From positions 36,847-82,936 of the forward strand of contig VXWP01000017.1 of NCBI GenBank assembly GCA_009835325.1: a DNA stretch of 46,090 nucleotides, read 5' to 3'. The position numbers were made by a program, and so were the translations under genes. Numbering within the stretch: position 1 is the stretch's first letter; each line of letters starts with the position of its first letter. Shown here piece by piece: positions 26,146-42,829 of this stretch. Source of the stretch: Gemmatimonadota bacterium (GTDB lineage Bacteria > JAAXHH01). The notes beneath the pieces are model-generated. The model was given only the letters and a program-made list of their open reading frames with translations, did no database searches and had not been told where the DNA came from.

Positions 26146-27171
26146 ATGGAAGAACGCATAGAAACCGTGACTACCGAAATCAAAATAGGTTCTCATCGCA
26201 TAAAGTCGCTTAAACCCGGCATGCCCATCCTCACGCTGGCGCCCATGGCGGGCATCAGCAACTGGCCGTTCCGGTTGATCTGCGCGAAGATGGGCGCCCA
26301 GATGGTCGGCGTGGAATTCATCAACTGCAACGCCATTCTCCACAAGAACCCGAAGACGCTTCAGATGATGAACTTCTGCGACGCCGACATCTACCGCGAT
26401 ACCGGCATGTCGCTGCTCGCGGCGCAGATCTACGGGAACGATATCGGCCGCATGGTGGAAGGCGCGCTGGTGCTGGAGGAAAAGGGCGCGCAGATCATGG
26501 ACATCAACTTCGGGTGTTCCGTGCCCAAGATCCTGCGGTCCGATTCCGGCGCCGCCTTCCTCAAGGACATCGACCGGATGATGAACGCGGTGCGCAGCGT
26601 GGCCGAGGCCGTCTCGATTCCGGTAATCATCAAGACGCGTCTGGGCTGGGACCACGACAACATCAGCATCCTGGAAGTGGTGAAACGCGCCGCGGATTCC
26701 GGCGCCCACGCCGTGGCGGTGCACGCACGCACCGTGGCGCAGAAGTTCAACGGGACCGCGGACTGGTCATGGATCGCCCGCGCCGTGGAAGTCTCTCCCG
26801 TGCCGATCTTCGGAAACGGCGACGTGTTCACCTACGAGGATGCGGTGCGCATGGTGGAAGAGACGGGGTGTGCCGGCGTGATGATCGCCCGGGCTGCGCG
26901 GGACAACCCCTACATCTTCTCCGGCGCGCGGATACCAACGTTCACCGAGCGCGTCCGGCTCGCCCGGGACCACCTGGGCATGATGGTGGAGTACAAGGGG
27001 GAGAAGGTGGGCGTGATGGAAATGCGCAAGTTCTTCGCCTCCTACTTCAAAGGCTTCCCCAACGCATCCCACCTGAGGACCAGCCTCGTGCAGGTGGACA
27101 CCGTCACGCAGGCCCACCGGATTCTGGACGAATGGGTGACGGAATCGGATCGTCAGCCGTATGATGCTTGA
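26146..27171 (+). CDS. dusB: tRNA-dihydrouridine synthase B
   Basis: A 341-residue FMN enzyme that reduces specific uridines in the tRNA D-loop. It begins with the FMN-barrel signature LTLAPMAGISNWPFRLI, has catalytic C124 in INFGCSVPKIL, the FMN-phosphate loop IFGNGDVFTYED and the C-terminal helical tRNA-binding domain. The usual NxGCPxxK motif is altered to NFGCSVPK, with the proline displaced by two residues. The ATG is preceded by AGGGG at close spacing; GTG a few codons later is possible. The 3' end overlaps the convergent phoU gene by 68 bp, so the two transcripts are complementary there. Confidence 0.92.
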   Translation: MEERIETVTTEIKIGSHRIKSLKPGMPILTLAPMAGISNWPFRLICAKMGAQMVGVEFINCNAILHKNPKTLQMMNFCDADIYRDTGMSLLAAQIYGNDIGRMVEGALVLEEKGAQIMDINFGCSVPKILRSDSGAAFLKDIDRMMNAVRSVAEAVSIPVIIKTRLGWDHDNISILEVVKRAADSGAHAVAVHARTVAQKFNGTADWSWIARAVEVSPVPIFGNGDVFTYEDAVRMVEETGCAGVMIARAARDNPYIFSGARIPTFTERVRLARDHLGMMVEYKGEKVGVMEMRKFFASYFKGFPNASHLRTSLVQVDTVTQAHRILDEWVTESDRQPYDA

Positions 27172-27808
27172 TCACGCGGCCTTCCGAGAAATACACCACG
27201 CCTTCGGCGATGTTCGTGGCGTGATCGGCCAGGCGTTCGATGTGGCGGGAAATGAAGATCAGTTGCATCGCCTGGGGCACCGACCCTGAATCCTCCTTCA
27301 TGCAGGCCAGCAGTTCCTCGAAGATCTGGTCCTGCAACTGATTGACCTCCTCGTCCCTGTCGCAGACCTCCATAGCCAGTTGCTCGTCTCCGCGCACGAA
27401 GGCGTTGAGGCTGTCCTTGACCATGGACTGGGAAAGGTCCGCCATGCGCGGCAGGTCGACGAGCGGTTTCAGGAGGGGCATCCCGGCGAGCTGTTTCGTT
27501 TTCTTGGAGATGTTGACGGCGATGTCGCCCAGCCGTTCCAGGTCGATCGTGATCTTCATGCTGGCCGCGACAAAGCGCAGGTCCCGCGCGATGGGGTGCT
27601 GGAGTGCCAGCAGCCGGATGCACTGCTCGTCGATCTCCAGTTCCATGGCGTCGATGGGCTGATCGCCGGCGATGACCTGATCGCACAAGTCGATGTCGCG
27701 CTCCACGTGCGCCGTGATCGCCCGGGCAATCTGTTCCTCTACGAGCGCCGCCATACTCAGCAGGGCGGACCTCAGGCCTTCCAGTTGTTGTTGAAGTTGG
27801 GTTTCCAT
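27104..27808 (-). CDS. phoU: Phosphate-specific transport system accessory protein PhoU
   Basis: A 234-residue all-helical cytoplasmic protein made of two similar three-helix bundles. The metal-cluster motifs are visible in both halves: TIDLERLGDIAVNIS (about 91-105) and SRHIERLADHATNIAEGVVYF (about 190-210). In characterised bacteria PhoU links the PstSCAB transporter to the PhoR kinase and keeps the Pho regulon off when phosphate is high. It is the last gene of pstC-pstA-pstB-phoU, 5 bp after pstB. The end overlaps dusB. phoR and phoB lie 13 kb away in the same window. Confidence 0.95.
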   Translation of the reverse strand: METQLQQQLEGLRSALLSMAALVEEQIARAITAHVERDIDLCDQVIAGDQPIDAMELEIDEQCIRLLALQHPIARDLRFVAASMKITIDLERLGDIAVNISKKTKQLAGMPLLKPLVDLPRMADLSQSMVKDSLNAFVRGDEQLAMEVCDRDEEVNQLQDQIFEELLACMKEDSGSVPQAMQLIFISRHIERLADHATNIAEGVVYFSEGRVIKHHTADDPIPSPIRPESGGPA

Positions 27809-27813
27809 GACTT

Positions 27814-28611
27814 CTAACCCGCACGGCCCGTGATGTAGTCTTCTGTGCGCCGGTCGCGGGGCGTGGTGAACATCGCGTCGGTCACGCCCATTTCCACCAG
27901 TTCGCCCTTGAGCATGAACCCGGTGTATTCGGACACACGCGCCGCCTGCTGCATGTTGTGCGTCACGATAACAATGGTGTAATCGTCCTTCAGATCAAGC
28001 ATTAATTCCTCGATCCTGGACGTGGCGACGGGGTCCAGCGACGAGCACGGCTCGTCCATGAGCAGGACTTCCGGTTCGACCGCGATCGCCCGCGCGATGC
28101 AGAGCCGCTGTTGCTGTCCGAGAGAAAGCCCGAGGGCGCTCTCCTCGAGCTGTGCCTGGACTTCCTCCCACAGGAAGGCCCGGCGCAGGCACCGTTCCAC
28201 GATCTCGTCGAGGAAACCGCCGGACTTCACGCCGTGGATCCGCGGACCGTAGGCCACGTTCTCGTAGATCGACTTGGGGAAGGGATTCGGCTGCTGGAAG
28301 ACCATGCCGACGCGCCGGCGCAGCCTCGTGACGTCGGTGTCCGGCCCGTAGATATCCACCCCGTTCATCCGGATCATACCCGTCATGCGGACCTGGGGAA
28401 CGAGGTCGTTCATGCGGTTGATCAACCTGAGCAAGGTCGTCTTGCCGCAGCCTGACGGGCCGATGAAGGCCGTGATGACCTGGCGGTCGATCGCCATGGT
28501 CACGTTTTTCAGCGCGGCCCGGTCCCCGTACCAGAAGGACACGTGCTCGACATCGATGATCGTTTCCTCACGCAGGATCTTCGGCGTGACCGGCGCGTTT
28601 TCCGTCGTCAT
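27814..28611 (-). CDS. pstB: Phosphate ABC transporter ATP-binding protein PstB
   Basis: A 265-residue ABC ATPase that powers phosphate import. Walker A is GPSGCGKTT, the Q-loop is [19 protein letters not shown], Walker B is [13 protein letters not shown] and the switch His is in [12 protein letters not shown]. The signature loop reads LSLGQQQR where PstB normally has LSGGQQQR, replacing the first glycine by leucine; this may lower but need not abolish activity. AGAGG lies about 9 nt before the ATG. It is separated from pstA by 110 bp with short direct repeats (CGCGTTGC, CTTGTGC) and a GCGCAC/TGCGC hairpin that could be an RNA-processing or attenuation element. Confidence 0.94.
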
Positions 28612-28721
28612 TCGCTAGAACCTCTTGGGCGCGTTGCTTGTGCAAACCGCCTTTGCGCCGCTTGTGCGCGTTGCCCGTGCGTGCCACTTCAGCGCACTGC
28701 AGGGGTGCGCGGCGGGATCAC

Positions 28722-30155
28722 CTATGCCCCGGCCGCGGCCAGTGAATAGCGTCTCCTCAGCCGACTTCTGAGCCCGATCGCCGCCGCGTTCAGCGCGACC
28801 ACGATGGCCAGCAGCAACAGGGTGGACGTGTACGCCATGGGTAGAGACGCCTCCCCGCCGTCCGGCCTGAAACCCGTGTCGAAGATATGAAACCCCAGGT
28901 GCATGAACTCCCGTTCCAGGTGCACGAAGGGCCAGGTGCCGTCCACGGGCAACTCGGCGGAAAAGGCGACGACCCCCGTGATCATCAGCGGCGCCACGGT
29001 ACCGGCCGCCCGCGCCACGGACAGGATCAGGCCCGTGAGTATGGACGGCAGCACCACCGGCACGACGACACGCCACAGCGTCTCGAACCGCGTCGCACCC
29101 AGGGCGTGAGATGCCTCGCGGAGTCCCGGGGGCACGCCGGCCAGCCCTTCCTCCACGGCCACGATGACCACGGGCAGGGTGAGCAGGACCAGGGTCAGCG
29201 CGCACCAGAGGATGCCGCCGCGGCCGAAAGTCGGTTCCGGGAGTTCCGCCGGAAAGAACAGACGGTCCAGGGTTCCTCCCAGATAATACACGAAGAAACC
29301 GAGTCCGAAAACCCCGAATACGATGGAGGGTACGCCGGCCAGGCTGTTCACGGCGATTCGAACCACGTTCAGGAACGGGCCCGGGTTGCCGTATTCTCTC
29401 AGGTAAAAGGCCGCCAGCGCGCCGAAGGGCATGACGACGACCGACATGAGGATGACCATCGCCGCCGTGCCGAAAATCGCCGGATAGACCCCGCCGAGCC
29501 GGTTTTGGTCTCTCGGCGGCGACCACAGGTAGGACCAGGCGCCGCCCATATAGTGACGGATCCTCGTCCACGTGGTCATCGCATTGGGCGCGTAGATCCG
29601 GTGGACGTTCGCGAGGGAAACGGTGTGCTGCCGGCCATCCGCAAAAGACAGGACGATGGACAGCGCCCGCTGCCTGCGCAGGCGTTCCAGTTCCGGGGAC
29701 TGCTCCCGGTAATGGGCCCGAACGGCTTCGTAACCCCGGGCGACGACCGTACCGTCGTCCACGAAGGATTCCAGGAAGCCGAAGACGTCCCCGCCCCGGA
29801 CCTGCTCCACGACCACGGCCTCGCGGGGGGCGTCACGCCACGCGACCCGGCCTTCCTCCAGCCAGACGTATTCGGCCGGAAACCGTTCCCGGTCGCCGGT
29901 CCGGACCCTCAATCGATAGGCCACGGACCGCTCACCCGACAAGCCGGCGGTCCGGACGCTGACGCGGGACGTCTCGTGGCCCAGGACAATCCTGCCGTCG
30001 CGCAGCTCGTACAGCGTGAGTTCCTGGGGCCAGAACCGGCCCAGTCCGTGCACGACAATGACCAGGATCAGTCCCGCCACCATCAGGAAGCCGAGGACCA
30101 GGGCGCCGCCGGACAGCCAGATCAGGGCGTCATCCTTTGACCACTTCGAAACCAT
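28722..30155 (-). CDS. pstA: Phosphate ABC transporter permease PstA (long form)
   Basis: A 477-residue inner-membrane permease. One N-terminal helix (about 12-35) is followed by a ~190-residue hydrophilic periplasmic part and then about five helices with the permease loop EASHALGATRFETLWRVV. Ordinary PstA has about 290 residues; the long form with a periplasmic insert is known in other Gram-negatives. The start used (MVSKWSKDDA) has GGAG 5 nt upstream; an earlier in-frame ATG at 30197 overlaps the end of pstC by 8 bp and would add 14 residues. The gene cooperates with PstC, PstB and an external PstS, which is not in the window. Confidence 0.9.
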   Translation of the reverse strand: MVSKWSKDDALIWLSGGALVLGFLMVAGLILVIVVHGLGRFWPQELTLYELRDGRIVLGHETSRVSVRTAGLSGERSVAYRLRVRTGDRERFPAEYVWLEEGRVAWRDAPREAVVVEQVRGGDVFGFLESFVDDGTVVARGYEAVRAHYREQSPELERLRRQRALSIVLSFADGRQHTVSLANVHRIYAPNAMTTWTRIRHYMGGAWSYLWSPPRDQNRLGGVYPAIFGTAAMVILMSVVVMPFGALAAFYLREYGNPGPFLNVVRIAVNSLAGVPSIVFGVFGLGFFVYYLGGTLDRLFFPAELPEPTFGRGGILWCALTLVLLTLPVVIVAVEEGLAGVPPGLREASHALGATRFETLWRVVVPVVLPSILTGLILSVARAAGTVAPLMITGVVAFSAELPVDGTWPFVHLEREFMHLGFHIFDTGFRPDGGEASLPMAYTSTLLLLAIVVALNAAAIGLRSRLRRRYSLAAAGA

Positions 30156-30189
30156 CACATCTCCCTGCGGCCGGTGGAACATCCGGCGC

Positions 30190-31320
30190 TCAAGCATACC
30201 GCCGTCTCAGCCGCCGTCGAACCAGTTCGGCCACGGTGTTGATCGCAAAAGTCGAAACGAGCAGGAGAAAGGCGGCGAAAAACAGGACCCGGTAGCGCGT
30301 GTCGTCCGGCGCGGCGTTCGGCAGGTCGAGGGCCACGCTGGCGGACAGGGCCCGGAACCCGGAGAAGGCGGACCAGTCCATCACCGGTATATTGCCCGAG
30401 ACGAACAGCACGATCATGGTCTCCCCGATCGCCCTGCTGAACCCCAGCAGAACGGCGGCCAGTATGCCGGATCCCGCGGCGGGAAGGACGATGCGCACGG
30501 CGGTCTGCCAGCGCGTGGCCCCCAGCGACATCGATCCTTCCAGGAATGAGCGGGGCACGGCGGAAAGCGTTTCTTCGGACAGGGTGAATATGATCGGTGT
30601 GACGGCCAGGCCCATGACCATACCCACGACGATCGCGTTCCGCTGCGTATAGGTCAGTCCCAGGGACTCCTCGAACCAGGTTTCGTAGCCGGCCCGCAGC
30701 CAGGCGGCCTCCAGCATCGCCCCGCATTCCAGGGCCAGCCATCCCCCGGCGAGCACGGCAACCAGCAGCAGCCAGATCTCCCGGCCCGGATGATTGAACG
30801 CCCGGAACCGCACCGGGGCATGGTGCCTGATGAGAAAAGCGGCCACCACCGCGCCGGAAATGAATACTGGCGCCAGGAAGAGGGCGAAGACGTGGGACGC
30901 CAGGAACGGTGCAAGCCAGATGCCGCCGATGAAACCGAGCACGACACTCGGTACCGCGGCCATGATTTCCACCAGCGGTTTCAGTCTTTCCTTCAGCACC
31001 CGCGGCAGGAACTGCGACGCGTAGAGCGCGGCGAGCACCGAGACCGGCACCGCGAAAAGCAAGGTATACACCGCCCCTTTCAAGGTCCCGGAGATCAGCG
31101 GCAGGATGCTGTACCCGGCGTCGATCCCCTCGGGATCGGAAACCCCCCAGCGGAATCCCGCGGGCGACGTGAACAAGGGGTAAATCACCCACATGATCAC
31201 GGCAAAGACCGACAGAATGGTCAGGATCAACACCACGCCGCCAAGGGCGGAGAGGCGGCCAACCAGAAGGTCCAGCAGAAGGCGCCGGTCAAACCGGCGT
31301 CCTTGGGGGCGATCGGTCAT
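30190..31320 (-). CDS. pstC: Phosphate ABC transporter permease PstC
   Basis: A 376-residue inner-membrane permease with about seven helices. The ABC-contacting loop is GSMSLGATRWQTAVRIVLPAA (around 268-288), and SRAIGETMIVLFVSGN is the conserved PstC segment. It is first of the pst genes. Its ATG lies 13-20 bp after a possible promoter. Unlike most pst operons there is no pstS in front; the upstream genes instead encode a surface protein and a TonB receptor. Confidence 0.93.
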   Translation of the reverse strand: MTDRPQGRRFDRRLLLDLLVGRLSALGGVVLILTILSVFAVIMWVIYPLFTSPAGFRWGVSDPEGIDAGYSILPLISGTLKGAVYTLLFAVPVSVLAALYASQFLPRVLKERLKPLVEIMAAVPSVVLGFIGGIWLAPFLASHVFALFLAPVFISGAVVAAFLIRHHAPVRFRAFNHPGREIWLLLVAVLAGGWLALECGAMLEAAWLRAGYETWFEESLGLTYTQRNAIVVGMVMGLAVTPIIFTLSEETLSAVPRSFLEGSMSLGATRWQTAVRIVLPAAGSGILAAVLLGFSRAIGETMIVLFVSGNIPVMDWSAFSGFRALSASVALDLPNAAPDDTRYRVLFFAAFLLLVSTFAINTVAELVRRRLRRRYA

Positions 31321-36344: not shown

Positions 36345-36409
36345 GGCCATGACGTTATGAATAAAGTTTGGTTTTTCCGGTCGGATGCGGCCGGCGGGTC
36401 AAAGACGGC

Positions 36410-36440
36410 TTGACAAAACCGCCGTCCGTCTTGCTTTATG
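36410..36440 (+). promoter_or_regulatory. Possible promoter of ppk1
   Basis: A perfect TTGACA at 36410-36415, with CTTTAT or TTTATG 18-19 bp downstream as a weak -10, about 50 bp before the ppk ATG. It diverges from the candidate PhoB promoter 66 bp away. Confidence 0.35.
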
Positions 36441-36489
36441 GATACTTGATCCAGGCTCGAAACCGCATATCCTCCAGGTGGCTTTAGTC

Positions 36490-38733
36490 ATGTCTTCCGC
36501 GAATGGGAACAACTCCAGGACCGCCACGGTTCGAACCATCGCCTCTAAGAGAGCGGGGCGCCGGTTCACCCACAAGCCCCGGCCTCCCGTCGCGCCGCTG
36601 GTGACGAACTACTGGCGCCCGGAACACTTCTTCAACCGGGAACTGAGCTGGATGGAGTTCAACGCGCGGGTGCTGGAGGAAGCGCTCGACCCGTCGGTTC
36701 CCCTGCTGGAACGGGTGAAGTTCCTGGCCATATTCAGCACCAACCTGGACGAGTTCTTCATGATCCGCGTCGCCGGCGTCAAGAGACAGATCGACGCGCA
36801 GGTCCAGTCCACGCGGACCGCCGACGGCCTGAGTCCCCGGGAGGTAATGACCGCGCTCTCGTCCCGGATGCACGAACTGGTCAACAAGCAGCACGGACTC
36901 TTCATCAACGAGATCTTCCCGCAACTCACCGAGCAGGGCATCGACATCCTCGAGCCGGAGCAACTCAGCCCTTCGCAGAAGGCCTATCTGGACGAGTACT
37001 TCCGGAAGACCATCCTGCCGGTGGTGACCCCGCTGGCGGTGGACCCGGGCCATCCGTTTCCCTACCTGGCCAACGGCACGCTCTGTCTCGTGGCTGAAAT
37101 CCGCAAGATCCAGAAATCCGTTTTCCCCCATACGAACCTCTCGGTCATCCACCTGCCCACCTCGGTCATGCCGCGGTTCCTCGAACTCCCGTCCGAAAAC
37201 GGCCGGCAGGCGTTCTTCATGCTGGAGGACGTCATCCAGATGAACCTCGACCTGTTCTACAACGGTTACGAGGTGCTGAACTGCGCGTCGATCCGCGTGA
37301 CGCGGGACGCCGACGTGGACTACGAGGAGGAAGGCGCGGAGGACCTGCTCAAGGTCATCGAGGAGGGCATTCGCAACCGGCGCAACGGGGCCGCGGTACG
37401 GTTGCAGTACGACCCAGAGCTGTCTTCGCGCATCCTGGACGTCCTGGTGGACGAACTGGAACTGGAGCCGGAGGATCTCTACCCCACGGAAGGCTTCACC
37501 GCTTTCTCCGATCTCATCGAACTGTACGACGCCGTCGACCGGCCCGATCTCATGGACGAACCCTTCCCGCCCCAGCCGGCGACGCCCTTCGAAGGCGCGC
37601 CTTCCATCTGGGAGGCCATCAGGAAGGACGATATCCTGCTGCACCACCCCTTTCATCAGTTCAACGCGGTGGTCCGGTTCGTTTCGGAAGCGGCGGAGGA
37701 TCCCCAGGTACTCGCCATCAAAATGACGCTGTACCGGGTCAGCGCCAATTCGCCTATCACCCGGGCGTTGACGCGAGCGGCGCAGAACGGCAAGGAAGTC
37801 TCGGTGCTGCTGGAGTTAAAGGCCCGGTTCGACGAGGCCGCGAATATCCAGTGGGCCAGGCAGCTGGAGGAGGCGGGGGCCCATGTCATCTACGGCATAC
37901 CGGGCATCAAGGTCCACTGCAAGGCCTGCCTGGTCGTGCGCCGGGAGGGCGAGGGGATACACCGGTACTGTCACCTGGGTACGGGGAATTACAACGACAA
38001 GACGGCGCGTATCTACGCCGATTTCGGCCTGTTCACCGACAAGGAGGAATTCGGCGAGGACGTGACGCAACTGTTCAACCTGCTGACCGGCTACGCGCTG
38101 CCCTCGCGCTTTCACCATCTCATCCTTTCGCCCACGTCGATGCGGGAGGACATGGTGAAGCGGCTTCAGCGGGAGAGCGACCGGGCCCGCGCCGGGCATC
38201 CGGCCCTGGTGATCGCGAAGATCAATTCCCTCGTTGACCCGGACATGATCGTGGCCCTGTACCAGGCCTCCCAGGCCGGCGTGCGGATACAGCTGATCAT
38301 CCGCGGCATATGCTGCCTGAGACCGGGCGTACCGGGATTGAGCGAGAACATCAGCGTCATCAGCATCGTCGACCGGTTCCTCGAGCACGTCCGGCTGTTC
38401 TATTTCTACAACGACGGAGACCCGGAATACCTGTTTTCAAGCGCGGACTGGATGGACCGGAACCTCAACCGCCGGGTCGAGATATCGTTCCCGGTCATCG
38501 ACCGGGCACTCCAGGCGGAGCTGTGGGCGTATTTGAAGATACAGTTGAAGGACAACGTGAAGGCGCGTGAATTGCAGTCGGACGGGACGTACCGGTACGT
38601 GAAGAAAGCGGGAAGACGCTTCCAGTCGCAGCGGGAACTGTACGAACTGGCCTGCGAGACCGTGAGGATCAACGCGGACCTGAAGATGAAGCGCTCCGCG
38701 GCTTCCCGGACTGCGCTGACCGCCCGGAACTGA
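36490..38733 (+). CDS. ppk1: Polyphosphate kinase 1
   Basis: A 747-residue enzyme that polymerises the gamma-phosphate of ATP into polyphosphate, and the reverse. It has the N-terminal helical domain beginning FFNRELSWMEFNARVLEEA, the long-chain middle domain with LSVIHLPTSVMPRFLELP, and two phospholipase-D-like C-terminal domains. The phosphorylated His is H476 (GIKVHCKACLVV), and the second motif is HLGTGNYNDKTARIYADFG (H495). ELKARFDEAANIQWARQLE is another family hallmark. The first ~50 residues are a basic, low-complexity extension. The ATG used is preceded by AGGTGG; a longer in-frame start would cross the TTGACA box. Position between the pst/TonB genes and phoBR fits phosphate storage control. 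Confidence 0.94.
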   Translation: MSSANGNNSRTATVRTIASKRAGRRFTHKPRPPVAPLVTNYWRPEHFFNRELSWMEFNARVLEEALDPSVPLLERVKFLAIFSTNLDEFFMIRVAGVKRQIDAQVQSTRTADGLSPREVMTALSSRMHELVNKQHGLFINEIFPQLTEQGIDILEPEQLSPSQKAYLDEYFRKTILPVVTPLAVDPGHPFPYLANGTLCLVAEIRKIQKSVFPHTNLSVIHLPTSVMPRFLELPSENGRQAFFMLEDVIQMNLDLFYNGYEVLNCASIRVTRDADVDYEEEGAEDLLKVIEEGIRNRRNGAAVRLQYDPELSSRILDVLVDELELEPEDLYPTEGFTAFSDLIELYDAVDRPDLMDEPFPPQPATPFEGAPSIWEAIRKDDILLHHPFHQFNAVVRFVSEAAEDPQVLAIKMTLYRVSANSPITRALTRAAQNGKEVSVLLELKARFDEAANIQWARQLEEAGAHVIYGIPGIKVHCKACLVVRREGEGIHRYCHLGTGNYNDKTARIYADFGLFTDKEEFGEDVTQLFNLLTGYALPSRFHHLILSPTSMREDMVKRLQRESDRARAGHPALVIAKINSLVDPDMIVALYQASQAGVRIQLIIRGICCLRPGVPGLSENISVISIVDRFLEHVRLFYFYNDGDPEYLFSSADWMDRNLNRRVEISFPVIDRALQAELWAYLKIQLKDNVKARELQSDGTYRYVKKAGRRFQSQRELYELACETVRINADLKMKRSAASRTALTARN

Positions 38734-38792
38734 GGGGATTCGGGAGAAAACCGGTACCAGGGTCAGCCGGTACCGGGGGACAACCGTTACAC

Positions 38793-38847
38793 AAAAAACA
38801 GGCGGACCAGGGAGATTGAGTCTTCCCCGGTCCGCCTGTGTGTTTTT
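38793..38847. terminator. Bidirectional rho-independent terminator between convergent genes
   Basis: ACAGGCGGACC (38798-38808) pairs with GGTCCGCCTGTGT (38829-38841). The stem extends inward through AGGGA/TTCCCC, with an A-run before it (38793-38798) and GTTTTT after it. It can end ppk1 on the plus strand and the small membrane-protein transcript on the minus strand. Confidence 0.9.
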
Positions 38848-38865
38848 ACGCCGACTACGTCTCAG

Positions 38866-39195
38866 TTACCACCCGATACGGGCCTTCGTCCTTTTCAGGA
38901 GAATGGTAACGACGCCGGCGTATAGGACGGTGCTGACCGGATCGATGATCGCGTCAAGGGTCGCGCCGATCGCCGGTATGTTGCTTAGCACGTCCATGCC
39001 CGCTGCTGCGCCGACGGCAATGGTGACCGCCAGGTAGCCCGTGGCGTCTTCCGCGTCGACCGACAGGTGCGCGTGCAACAGGCCGAGGATGACCAGCAAC
39101 AGCCCGACAACGGTACCGTCAAGCAGCATACCGCTAACCAGCCCCTCATGCAACGCCAGCAGCACCGCGAGTCCAACGACTATCCGGGATGCCAT
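38866..39195 (-). CDS. Small three-helix membrane protein, paralogue 1
   Basis: A 109-residue integral membrane protein of no family I recognise. Helices lie at about 4-22, 28-45 and 55-72, with a fourth hydrophobic stretch at about 86-101 (VSTVLYAGVVTILL). The core VDAEDATGYLAVTIAVGAAAG, then DVLS-IP-IG-LD-I-DP-S-LYA, is shared with its neighbour of exactly the same length. A perfect GGAGG lies 8 nt before the ATG. The gene ends at the bidirectional terminator shared with ppk1. It lies 113 bp after paralogue 2 and is likely cotranscribed. Function unknown; position between ppk1 and phoR hints at phosphate or polyphosphate physiology, which is inference only. Confidence 0.85.
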   Translation of the reverse strand: MASRIVVGLAVLLALHEGLVSGMLLDGTVVGLLLVILGLLHAHLSVDAEDATGYLAVTIAVGAAAGMDVLSNIPAIGATLDAIIDPVSTVLYAGVVTILLKRTKARIGW

Positions 39196-39256
39196 ATATC
39201 TTACCTCCTAAGCACTTGAAAACGACTCGGTTCAGGGAAGGCCGGGTAAACCTTCG

Positions 39257-39302
39257 CGGCACGGAAAGCCGCGGGTCCCCGGCACGGAAGGCCGCGGGTC
39301 GC
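39257..39302. repeat. 23-bp tandem duplication with hairpins
   Basis: CGGCACGGAAAGCCGCGGGTCCC is followed by CGGCACGGAAGGCCGCGGGTCGC. The first copy with its flank forms CGCGGC-ACGGAAA-GCCGCG (39255-39273). It lies between the two small membrane-protein genes, where it could separate or stabilise the two message halves. Confidence 0.8.
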
Positions 39303-39308
39303 GGCCGC

Positions 39309-39638
39309 CTATCCCTTGAGCCGGTTTAACGTACGCATGATCAGGATGGAAAACACGCTGGCGTACAGCGCTGAGCTGGCCGGATCCAGAATGCCGTCCA
39401 GGGACATTCCGATGACCGGTATGCCACTCAACACGTCTGCGCCCGCCGCCGCGCCTACCGCGATAGTCACGACCAGGTAGTCCGTTGCGTCCTCAGCGTC
39501 TACCCCCACGAAGCCGTAGGCGATACCCAGGAGCACAATCAGGATCATTATGGCTCCGCCATCATTCATCATGCCACCAGCCAACCCCTGGATGATCGCC
39601 AAAAGGGCGATCAAACCCACAATTACTCTGGTTGCCAT
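39309..39638 (-). CDS. Small three-helix membrane protein, paralogue 2
   Basis: A 109-residue integral membrane protein, paralogous to the next gene downstream. Shared residues concentrate in VDAEDATDYLVVTIAVGAAA (about 46-65) and DVLSGIPVIGMSLDGILDPASSALYA (about 68-93), while the first two helices (VIVGLIALLAIIQGLAGG; AIMILIVLLGIAYGF) are less conserved. The acidic AED inside a membrane region and the GAAAG turn suggest a structural or transport role. GGAGG lies 5 nt before the ATG used here; a longer frame start 14 codons earlier would swallow that site. The 5' leader is about 240 nt long. No known family identified. Confidence 0.85.
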   Translation of the reverse strand: MATRVIVGLIALLAIIQGLAGGMMNDGGAIMILIVLLGIAYGFVGVDAEDATDYLVVTIAVGAAAGADVLSGIPVIGMSLDGILDPASSALYASVFSILIMRTLNRLKG

Positions 39639-39888
39639 ATCTACCTCCTGGAGGAGAATGGTTTTGCCACCGGCCCGCACCAGCGCGTTGCCGTGGCGGG
39701 AACTACGGCGAGACGAACTTGCGTCGCGTACGCACAGTAAGCCGCACCTGTCACTAACTTCCTTCGAAACGGTTCAGTCGGACGCGCGCGTCCGCGCATC
39801 GTGCGACTGCCTTCAGAAGCCTGGCCGGAGTCCTGCGTATCGGGGTCTTGTTCCCGATGGTTTATTTTGTTTTTTGGGTTATGTACCC

Positions 39889-39917
39889 AATAAATATCAG
39901 AAGGGAAGCACTGTCAA
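39889..39917 (-). promoter_or_regulatory. Sigma-70-type promoter of the small membrane-protein pair
   Basis: On the minus strand TTGACA at 39917-39912, a 17-bp spacer and TTTATT at 39894-39889. It lies about 250 bp before the first gene's ATG in the AT-rich core. Confidence 0.6.
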
Positions 39918-39924
39918 GGGTAAA

Positions 39925-39949
39925 TGTGTTTTTTGATCCAAAAAACACA
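39925..39949. promoter_or_regulatory. Perfect 25-bp palindrome next to a promoter
   Basis: TGTGTTTTTTG (39925-39935), ATC, CAAAAAACACA (39939-39949): an 11-bp perfect inverted repeat with a 3-nt centre, ending 8 bp upstream of the TTGACA box of the small membrane-protein transcript. It may be an operator, or an AT-rich terminator hairpin for phoR about 110 bp downstream of its stop. Confidence 0.75.
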
Positions 39950-40057
39950 GGAAACAAAGCGGAAGAACACGGCGGTCCGTTGATCGAGCACAGACCATGA
40001 AACGAGCGGTCCCGGCCAGCACATCCCACCGGGTGCCGCGAGTGGGGATGGTGTGGT

Positions 40058-41935
40058 CTAAGTGGTTCCACCCGTGGTAGTTTCGCCGACCGATTCTCCT
40101 GGCGTGCGGGCGGGGCGTCCGGTCACTTCGGACTGTTCGTCTTCCGACGGCTCGTTTTCGGTCCACGCGGGCAGGGAGAGGTAGAAGGTCGCGCCTTCGC
40201 CGAGCCTGCTCTCGACCCATGCCCGGCCGTTGAGCAGTTCCATGGTGTGCCGGACGATCGCCAGGCCCAGGCCGGTTCCGCCCAGGGCCCTGGACCGCGC
40301 CCGGTCAACCCGGAAAAAACGTTCGAAGATCCGGGGAAGCGCCTCGGACGGAATGCCCGGTCCGGTGTCGGAAACCGACAGGACGATCTCATCGACCCGC
40401 TCCTCGGTGCCGATGGTAATCGATCCGCCATTCTCCGTGTATTTCACGGCGTTGTCCACCAGATTGGACAGGGCCCGCTCCATGAGTTCGGGATCTCCGC
40501 GGGCCGGCCTGTCCGTTTCGAAACGCAGGGAGAGCGCCAGTTGCTTGCGGTCGACCTGTTTCGCGAAAATCTCGGCAACCCGTTCCGAAACCCGGTCCAG
40601 GCGGCAGGAGGTGAATTCGACCTCGTACCGGCCCGATTCTATGCTGGACAGTTGCAGCAGGTCCTCGACCAGCGCCTGGAGCCGGTCGGCATGATGCTGG
40701 ATGGACGTCATGAAACGGCGCAGCGCGGCGGTATCTTCCATGGCGCCGTCCAGCAGCGTCTCCACAAAACCCTTGATGGAGGTCAGCGGCGTCCTGAGTT
40801 CGTGAGACACGTTGGCCACGAAGTCCTTCCTGACCTGCTCAAGGCGGCGCAGTTCGGTCATGTCGTGGAACACGGCGACCACGCCGTGCAGCTGCTCCCC
40901 GATGCGTACGGGAGTCAGGTGTACCTGGAAGATGCGCTGGTTCCACTCCAGGGTCAGGTCGAACACGGTATCCTCGTGCAGGGACGGCGCCGAATCGATC
41001 GCGGCGTCCACCACGCTCTGCAGGTCGTGGTTGCGCACGACCTCGATCGGTCGCTTGTTCAGGCACCACGCGTCCACGTCCATCATGCGCTTGAAAGCCG
41101 GATTGACCATCAGGATCCGCCCTTCCGCGGAGGTCACCATTACGCCTTCCGCCATACCGGACAGCACCGCTTCGAGCTGGGCGTTCTCTTCCCGGATCCG
41201 CGAAAGCCTTTCCTTTGATTGCGCGGCCATCTCGTTCAGGGCGGCCGCCAGTGAGGAGAGTTCGACGTGCGCCGGCGCGGAAGCGGCGACCTCGAGGTCG
41301 CCGGCGGCCTGGCGACGGGCGACTTCCGTCATGCGTTCGATCGGTCGGGACACCAGTCTCTCCGTGCCCCAGCTCAGCACGACGCTCAACAGGAGGCCGA
41401 TGCCAAGGGCCGCGAGCACGATCTTCCATATATGGGATTCGATCCAACGGAACTGCTGCAGCGGCAGCGCGACCCGAACTACGCCCCTTGCCTGTTCGGT
41501 GCGGAAGGGGACCGCCACATAGGCCATGTCGGTTTCCAGCGTGTTGCTGTAGCGGATGCTGTTACCGATCCCCGACGCGATGGCTTCGAGGATCTCCGGC
41601 CGGTCGCCGTGGTTCTCCAAGAGGGGAACGGACGAAAGGGGGATGGACGAATCACCGGCCACGACGCCGTCGTCCCGCACCACGGTTACGCGGGCGCCGC
41701 ACTGCTCACCCAGGCGGTCCGCGATCGGATCGATCGTTTCGGGGGAAAGGGACGGAAGCGGCGTGTTTTCCAGGTAGGACTGGATCAGGCGGGCGTCATT
41801 GAGCAACTGCTCGCGGGTATGGCCGCTGACGTCCTCGCGGAGGGACGTGTTCAGATAGATGTACACGGCGCCCGCCACCACCAGGGTAAAGGCGACGTAG
41901 CCGACCAGGATCTTTGTCTGTAGCGAAAATCGCAT
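40058..41935 (-). CDS. phoR: Phosphate-regulon sensor histidine kinase PhoR
   Basis: A 625-residue membrane kinase. Order: TM1 about 9-29, a periplasmic sensor part about 30-168, TM2 about 170-190, HAMP about 190-245, PAS about 252-365, HisKA with phospho-accepting H378 (FVANVSHELRTPLTSIKG), and the ATPase domain with LSNLVDNAVKYTENGG and SDTGPGIP, ending in GGTGLGLAIVRH. The periplasmic domain is larger than in E. coli PhoR, as in many PhoR/PnpS-type kinases. It phosphorylates the response regulator encoded 8 bp upstream. Placement near pst, phoU and ppk supports the PhoR call over other PAS-HAMP kinases. Confidence 0.88.
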   Translation of the reverse strand: MRFSLQTKILVGYVAFTLVVAGAVYIYLNTSLREDVSGHTREQLLNDARLIQSYLENTPLPSLSPETIDPIADRLGEQCGARVTVVRDDGVVAGDSSIPLSSVPLLENHGDRPEILEAIASGIGNSIRYSNTLETDMAYVAVPFRTEQARGVVRVALPLQQFRWIESHIWKIVLAALGIGLLLSVVLSWGTERLVSRPIERMTEVARRQAAGDLEVAASAPAHVELSSLAAALNEMAAQSKERLSRIREENAQLEAVLSGMAEGVMVTSAEGRILMVNPAFKRMMDVDAWCLNKRPIEVVRNHDLQSVVDAAIDSAPSLHEDTVFDLTLEWNQRIFQVHLTPVRIGEQLHGVVAVFHDMTELRRLEQVRKDFVANVSHELRTPLTSIKGFVETLLDGAMEDTAALRRFMTSIQHHADRLQALVEDLLQLSSIESGRYEVEFTSCRLDRVSERVAEIFAKQVDRKQLALSLRFETDRPARGDPELMERALSNLVDNAVKYTENGGSITIGTEERVDEIVLSVSDTGPGIPSEALPRIFERFFRVDRARSRALGGTGLGLAIVRHTMELLNGRAWVESRLGEGATFYLSLPAWTENEPSEDEQSEVTGRPARTPGESVGETTTGGTT

Positions 41936-41943
41936 GACAGGGC

Positions 41944-42621
41944 CTACCTGGCGAAGCGGTATCCGACCCCCCGCACCGTTTCCACCATGCCGGCGGCCTC
42001 GCCGAGTTTCTCTCGCAATCGCTTGATGTGGGCGTCCACGGTGCGTCCGTACCCCATGTAGTCATATCCCCAGACCACGTCGAGCAGTTCCTCCCGGGTC
42101 TGTACCCTGCCGCGCCGCTGAAAGAGAACGGCCAGGAGCTTGAACTCGGTGGCCGTCAGGGACACCGAGCTTCCCGATACGGACACGTGGTGGCCTTCCA
42201 CGTCGATGACCAGGGATCCCGCCCGGACGGGGCCCGCGGTTTCCGGCTCGGTCCGGCGGCGCAGGATGTTCCGGATGCGCAGGGCGATCTCCCGGGGGCT
42301 GAAGGGTTTGACCACATAGTCGTCGGCCCCCAGTTCAAGACCGATGATCCGGTCGATTTCCTCGCTCTTCGCGGTCAGCATAAGGATGGGTATGAACCTC
42401 GTGCGTTCGTCCTGTTTCAGAATGCGGCAAACATCGGTGCCTTCGAGTCCGGGCAGCATGAGGTCGAGCACGATGAGATCAGGGGCCTCGTCGCGGGCTT
42501 TTTCAAGCGCGGCCGAGCCGTCCGCCGCCACGATGACGTCGAAGCCGGATTTCTCCAGATTGTACTGGATGATTTCCACGATATCGGGCTCGTCGTCTAC
42601 GACAAGTATCGTTTGGCGCAT
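41944..42621 (-). CDS. phoB: Phosphate-regulon response regulator PhoB
   Basis: A 225-residue OmpR/PhoB-type transcription factor. The receiver domain has D9/D10 (VVDDEPD), phospho-acceptor D53 (VLDLMLPGLEG) and K105 (VVKPFSPRE). The winged-helix domain contains LTATEFKLLAVLFQ, GRVQTREELLDVVWGYDY and the recognition helix RTVDAHIKRLREKLGE. The ATG used begins the receiver exactly; GGATGGGG lies 2-8 nt upstream. An in-frame extension of 52 codons is arginine/proline-rich and is not expected to be coding. It would bind PHO boxes such as the candidate before the TonB receptor. Confidence 0.9.
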   Translation of the reverse strand: MRQTILVVDDEPDIVEIIQYNLEKSGFDVIVAADGSAALEKARDEAPDLIVLDLMLPGLEGTDVCRILKQDERTRFIPILMLTAKSEEIDRIIGLELGADDYVVKPFSPREIALRIRNILRRRTEPETAGPVRAGSLVIDVEGHHVSVSGSSVSLTATEFKLLAVLFQRRGRVQTREELLDVVWGYDYMGYGRTVDAHIKRLREKLGEAAGMVETVRGVGYRFAR

Positions 42622-42745
42622 TCCCCATCCTGTCTGCTTTCTGGGACCACCTCGCGCGCGTCCCGCGGGTCGAATTGTCTCGCGCGCGCGCCGCGGGCCA
42701 TCGACACGCAGATCGACGCGCAGGCGGCTCATTCGAGGTATCCGA

Positions 42746-42774
42746 AATATACCTGGCGCGGGGTCTGTTGAAAA
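42746..42774 (-). promoter_or_regulatory. Possible promoter of phoBR
   Basis: On the minus strand TTTTCA at 42774-42769, a 17-bp spacer and TATATT at 42751-42746, about 120 bp before phoB. The leader holds alternating CG-rich runs (CGCGCGCGCG). Confidence 0.4.
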
Positions 42775-42829
42775 CACAAAACGGCGGCCGGACCCGCGAT
42801 CGGGCGTGTGTACGGGCAGGCAATAACGC

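Follow-up and report, generated by a model that had tools for sequence, protein, structure and literature searches.

The window, a stretch of 46,090 nt from a contig of a Gemmatimonadota bacterium, encodes two adjacent small membrane proteins, here called P1 and P2, whose family is undescribed in the libraries searched and spans three phylum-level groups. The genes have their own promoter, terminator and conserved leader, the tandem copies have been retained over the long term, and no conserved partner gene accompanies the family. Our tentative explanation is that the pair forms a self-contained operon of a family of cytoplasmic-membrane proteins of ~105–115 residues, most of them with four helices, which would assemble into a mixed oligomer whose role would be structural or related to stress, outside phosphate and polyphosphate metabolism.

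The gene pair and its probable transcription unit

P2, the upstream gene (39309..39638; four-helix model with pLDDT 87), and P1, the downstream gene (38866..39195), both lie on the minus strand, and each specifies a protein of 109 amino acids, as the initial annotation had claimed. The two proteins align without gaps and are 57% identical (61 of 107 positions the same); the E-value of 5e-32 puts their likeness beyond chance and rules out a fortuitous resemblance. The strings that had been quoted as shared between them are correct, apart from small simplifications in spacing. Both genes have an orthologue in all genus mates and evolve under purifying selection within the genus, with dN/dS values against the window copy of at most 0.36 for P1 and at most 0.23 for P2. 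The source genome holds just one such pair.

Each gene is preceded by a perfect Shine–Dalgarno sequence, AGGAGG, at 39204..39209 (−) for P1 and at 39644..39649 (−) for P2, invariant in 11 genomes in both cases and in agreement with the earlier description. An in-frame GTG further upstream would lengthen P2 to 123 amino acids; this start is not favoured, since the AGGAGG at 39644–39649 suits the ATG at 39638 and the extension is missing from several genus mates.

A consensus promoter scanner returned no good site; instead, a promoter at 39889..39917 (−) emerged from genome comparison, consisting of TTGACA (39912–39917), a 17-nt spacer and TTTATT (39889–39894). The TTGACA box is invariant in 11 genomes, and a TTGACA box likewise precedes the triplet operons of another phylum. 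Nothing like it was found between P2 and P1, so that the dedicated promoter proposed for each gene gives way to one conserved promoter, upstream of P2, which serves the pair. P2 and P1 most likely constitute a single two-gene unit, transcribed in that order, because the sequence between them (89–115 nt in the genus) has no comparable promoter and is poorly conserved, except for the ribosome site. In the window, this spacer contains an imperfect 23-bp tandem repeat (1.9 copies; 39257–39300), and it is shorter in most genus mates.

On the far side of P1, at 38793..38844, we found a strong bidirectional hairpin terminator, common to the pair and to the convergent ppk1 gene. Folding gives z = −5.6 on the strand of the pair and z = −4.1 on that of ppk1, and the stem is conserved in the genus; the terminator shared with ppk1 is thus one of the features that were rightly recognised at the outset.

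A predicted four-helix family in three phylum-level groups

Small membrane proteins with several helices and no assigned role are common. Searches of P1 and P2 against Pfam, NCBIfam, PHROGs and PADLOC yielded chance-level matches only; PDB sequences gave no match, nor did PDB folds (best E-value 2.1, with the better of the models described below) or the folds in a viral structure library. Within these libraries, the profile, sequence and fold searches thus uphold the original view that the family is not a known one.

The family does have remote relatives, exemplified by L126 (LILAVLGLIVGFLNITASESQGFLISAIAL...IPSVGEWL...). Aligned as profiles with hhalign, the close family and the remote relatives match with a probability of 95.7% (E 8.6e-9; 86 columns). 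The remote proteins (L125–L131) have the consensus LxLAxLGLIVGFxNIT..E...FL.AAIAL...IP.IG..L..I..N...F.APAA.VVALK and no database name, and they have no match in Pfam or NCBIfam either. They resemble P1 and P2 in length, in the four-helix pattern, in the register of G38 and G77 and in the IPxIG motif, but share only ~20% identity with them, are devoid of the VDAEDAT and LDxIxDP signatures and occur as single copies in the loci seen. A profile of the remote members alone found nothing in the phylum of genome G097, and so lacks the breadth needed to detect the close family. Similar small membrane proteins may exist in archaeal genomes, a lead only.

The claim that both are membrane proteins is supported. 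AlphaFold2 predicted a four-helix model with a pLDDT of 72.8 from the close family alone; with 40 members, including remote ones, the pLDDT was 87.2 and the pTM 0.76. In the latter model, helices extend over residues 2–19, 27–45, 52–66 and 77–108, with a short additional one at 69–72. Conserved acidic residues are found at the helix ends of the family proteins. Positive charges occur at the N-terminus (R4) and at the C-terminus (R102, R106 and K108) and the loops are all acidic, a pattern which fits a topology with both termini inside.

Within the genus of the window, the pair is present in all 11 further members. One of them, G011, carries a second, different pair (L093, 9433–10205) in an unrelated neighbourhood, beside ispG (GcpE). 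In the phylum of G097 (labelled Latescibacterota), family members occur in 21 of 64 genomes, as three tandem copies in one clade and as a single copy in others. In the third phylum, that of G096, there are a close relative, forms with two copies and remote forms with a single copy. A tandem family pair in another phylum (L181, 6327–7243) is situated between a dihydroxy-acid dehydratase-like gene and an outer-membrane beta-barrel gene. The pair is thus conserved in all genus members examined, but it is not a fixed one, as lineages elsewhere retain a single copy or three.

A collection of named genomes returned matches in records labelled Candidatus Latescibacterota, Gemmatimonadetes/Gemmatimonadota and Bryobacterales. 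Close relatives of the pair were seen in metagenome-assembled genomes labelled Gemmatimonadetes, Gemmatimonadota and Bryobacterales (L029, L035 and L036). L029 corresponds to a contig from a genome of the window's own genus, in which other members bear the label Latescibacterota; the public labels thus disagree. Among 384 genomes chosen as relatives, no family member was found outside the window's own phylum. Phage and plasmid records held no family match, save for one in a viral contig (L164, 3900–4386), where a short piece of the remote family is fused to a glycosyltransferase-like frame; we discarded it as a likely chimera.

In a phylogenetic tree, each tandem copy forms a clade of its own across species, with support values of 84/98 for P2, 100/99 for P1 and 99/93, 100/99 and 99/94 for the three copies of the triplets. 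Tandem duplication probably arose more than once, with each copy retained afterwards, because the triplets form a group separate from the P1 and P2 clades (80/81). As the branching between the P1 and P2 clades is poorly supported, a single old duplication followed by losses may instead account for the copies.

Possible functions and the phosphate neighbourhood

Under the mixed-oligomer explanation, P2 and P1 would be made together and at a high rate, as suggested by the TTGACA promoter and the perfect ribosome sites, and would insert with both ends in the cytoplasm. Packing could proceed through helix 3, rich in small residues (AVGAAAGAD), and helix 4, with its IPxIGxxLDxIxDP motif. The copies would be divergent subunits of one mixed oligomer; the retention of such copies side by side in a single unit is the pattern that subunits would show. 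The two-subunit complex suggested earlier is still plausible. The assembly would work on its own as a component of the membrane, either structural or related to stress, and its output might be tuned through the leader. A wider version, which we consider rather unlikely as a whole, envisages a tiny four-helix family in several phyla, repeatedly duplicating into two- and three-subunit operons with a dedicated leader, and constituting a new hetero-oligomeric membrane structure of uncultured bacteria.

Two other explanations are serious rivals, each of them unlikely when taken singly. By the first, the proteins form a small pore, a channel or a holin-like permeability device that opens under stress. 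Devices of this type often have small, multi-copy membrane subunits, and the size, the four hydrophobic helices and the conserved acidic residues at the helix ends would suit one. Phage holins, small proteins with 2–4 transmembrane segments, are similarly small and hydrophobic with several membrane helices; however, no PHROG holin scored above chance, the structure searches and the phage and plasmid records offered no counterpart, and the neighbouring genes are neither phage nor lysis genes, so that P1 and P2 match holins neither in profile or fold nor in a lysis cassette. By the second, P1 and P2 are accessory or regulatory subunits of some membrane enzyme or transporter whose own genes lie at another place in the genome. 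The genes of small polytopic subunits frequently lie apart from those of their partners, and a stand-alone operon with no conserved neighbour is in line with this; the patchy spread of the family (21 of 64 genomes in one phylum, and none outside the window's phylum among the 384 relatives) nevertheless misfits a universal partner.

The genomic position of the pair had led to the proposal that it is tied to the handling of phosphate or polyphosphate. The window includes a Pho cluster (27104–31320 and 36385–42777) with phoU, pstB, pstA and pstC, then ppk1, the gene for a PnpS/PhoR-type kinase and phoB; phoU and pstB were assigned by reading the translations only. In all 10 further genus loci fetched, the pair is located between ppk1 and phoR, and phoB, nth and polX follow. 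To this extent, the ppk/phoR neighbourhood is conserved; it is not conserved in 20 loci outside the genus, mostly 13–19.5 kb long, none of which has a ppk1, phoR, phoB or pst gene nearby. Each lineage has its own conserved neighbours, unrelated in kind: an AAA protein and an aminotransferase; a tRNA modification enzyme and a kinase; SLBB and ankyrin proteins; ispG (GcpE); a nucleotidyl transferase; a dehydratase and an outer-membrane barrel; or a MacB-type permease and a beta-lactamase-like protein. Across the family loci compared, there is no conserved partner gene. The association of the pair with Pho genes therefore has the appearance of a gene order handed down within one genus.

We also searched the window for a PhoB box and found no site at three mismatches or fewer to the E. 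coli-type repeat, a consensus that may not be the one used in this phylum. Pho-regulon membrane components, such as the pst permeases, share the gene cluster with P1 and P2 in this genus; unlike such components, the pair has no family match, no PhoB-box-like site and no association with the cluster outside the genus. That the pair is a Pho-regulon membrane complex, handling phosphate or polyphosphate in the genus, is accordingly improbable: its fixed place between ppk1 and phoR, within a complete Pho cluster, speaks for it, whereas the 20 outside loci, the window without a PhoB-box-like site, and the promoter that the pair has to itself, along with a terminator on the ppk1 side, all speak against it. 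The phosphate genes beside the pair are probably no clue to its job.

The conserved leader and the significance of the family

Between the promoter and P2 there is a 5′ leader of ~245 nt (39639..39882, minus strand), the start of which is placed from the promoter. Its section 39690–39840 is unusually conserved, with a majority identity of ~88–99% (in ten-base blocks, 11 species) versus 78–80% at third codon positions. One copy was found per genome, only upstream of P2. The leader is noncoding, because its indels are not multiples of three, which rules out a coding sequence. Nor does it match an Rfam element: there was no match at the gathering score, and below that, matches were at chance level only. 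A consensus fold exists, but it has two covarying pairs only, and its stability is close to that of shuffled sequences and no higher.

A leader element, approximately CGGTRAYCGTYRCGG, recurs at −60 to −65 in the other phylum, in four genomic contexts with no other relation to one another. A model of the leader built from that phylum matches the family loci there and little else, and also picks up the window leader where it should lie. With the ribosome-site end removed, the cross-phylum support drops to E = 0.005–0.017 for two genus members and disappears for the rest; this weak trace suggests that the leader may be of common ancestry across phyla. Matches of leader models elsewhere in the genomes (L196–L198) were rejected, as they lie upstream of unrelated soluble proteins and owe their score mostly to the ribosome-site/ATG end. 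Least probable of the rival explanations is the one in which function resides chiefly in the leader, as a structured regulatory RNA or a small RNA, and the proteins are its regulated output: conservation above that of third codon positions, a single copy per genome and the empty Rfam search would be compatible with it, but covariation is weak, stability is near that of shuffles and the signal fades beyond the genus.

For the family, the analysis removes a misleading functional clue, phosphate, and provides a hitherto uncurated group of proteins with a defined boundary, an alignment, a predicted fold and a list of loci. In bacteria that are known mainly through metagenomes, the conserved leader is a candidate new regulatory element. 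Repeated tandem duplication, with every copy retained, leads to a clear and testable prediction, namely that these small proteins would form a mixed membrane oligomer.
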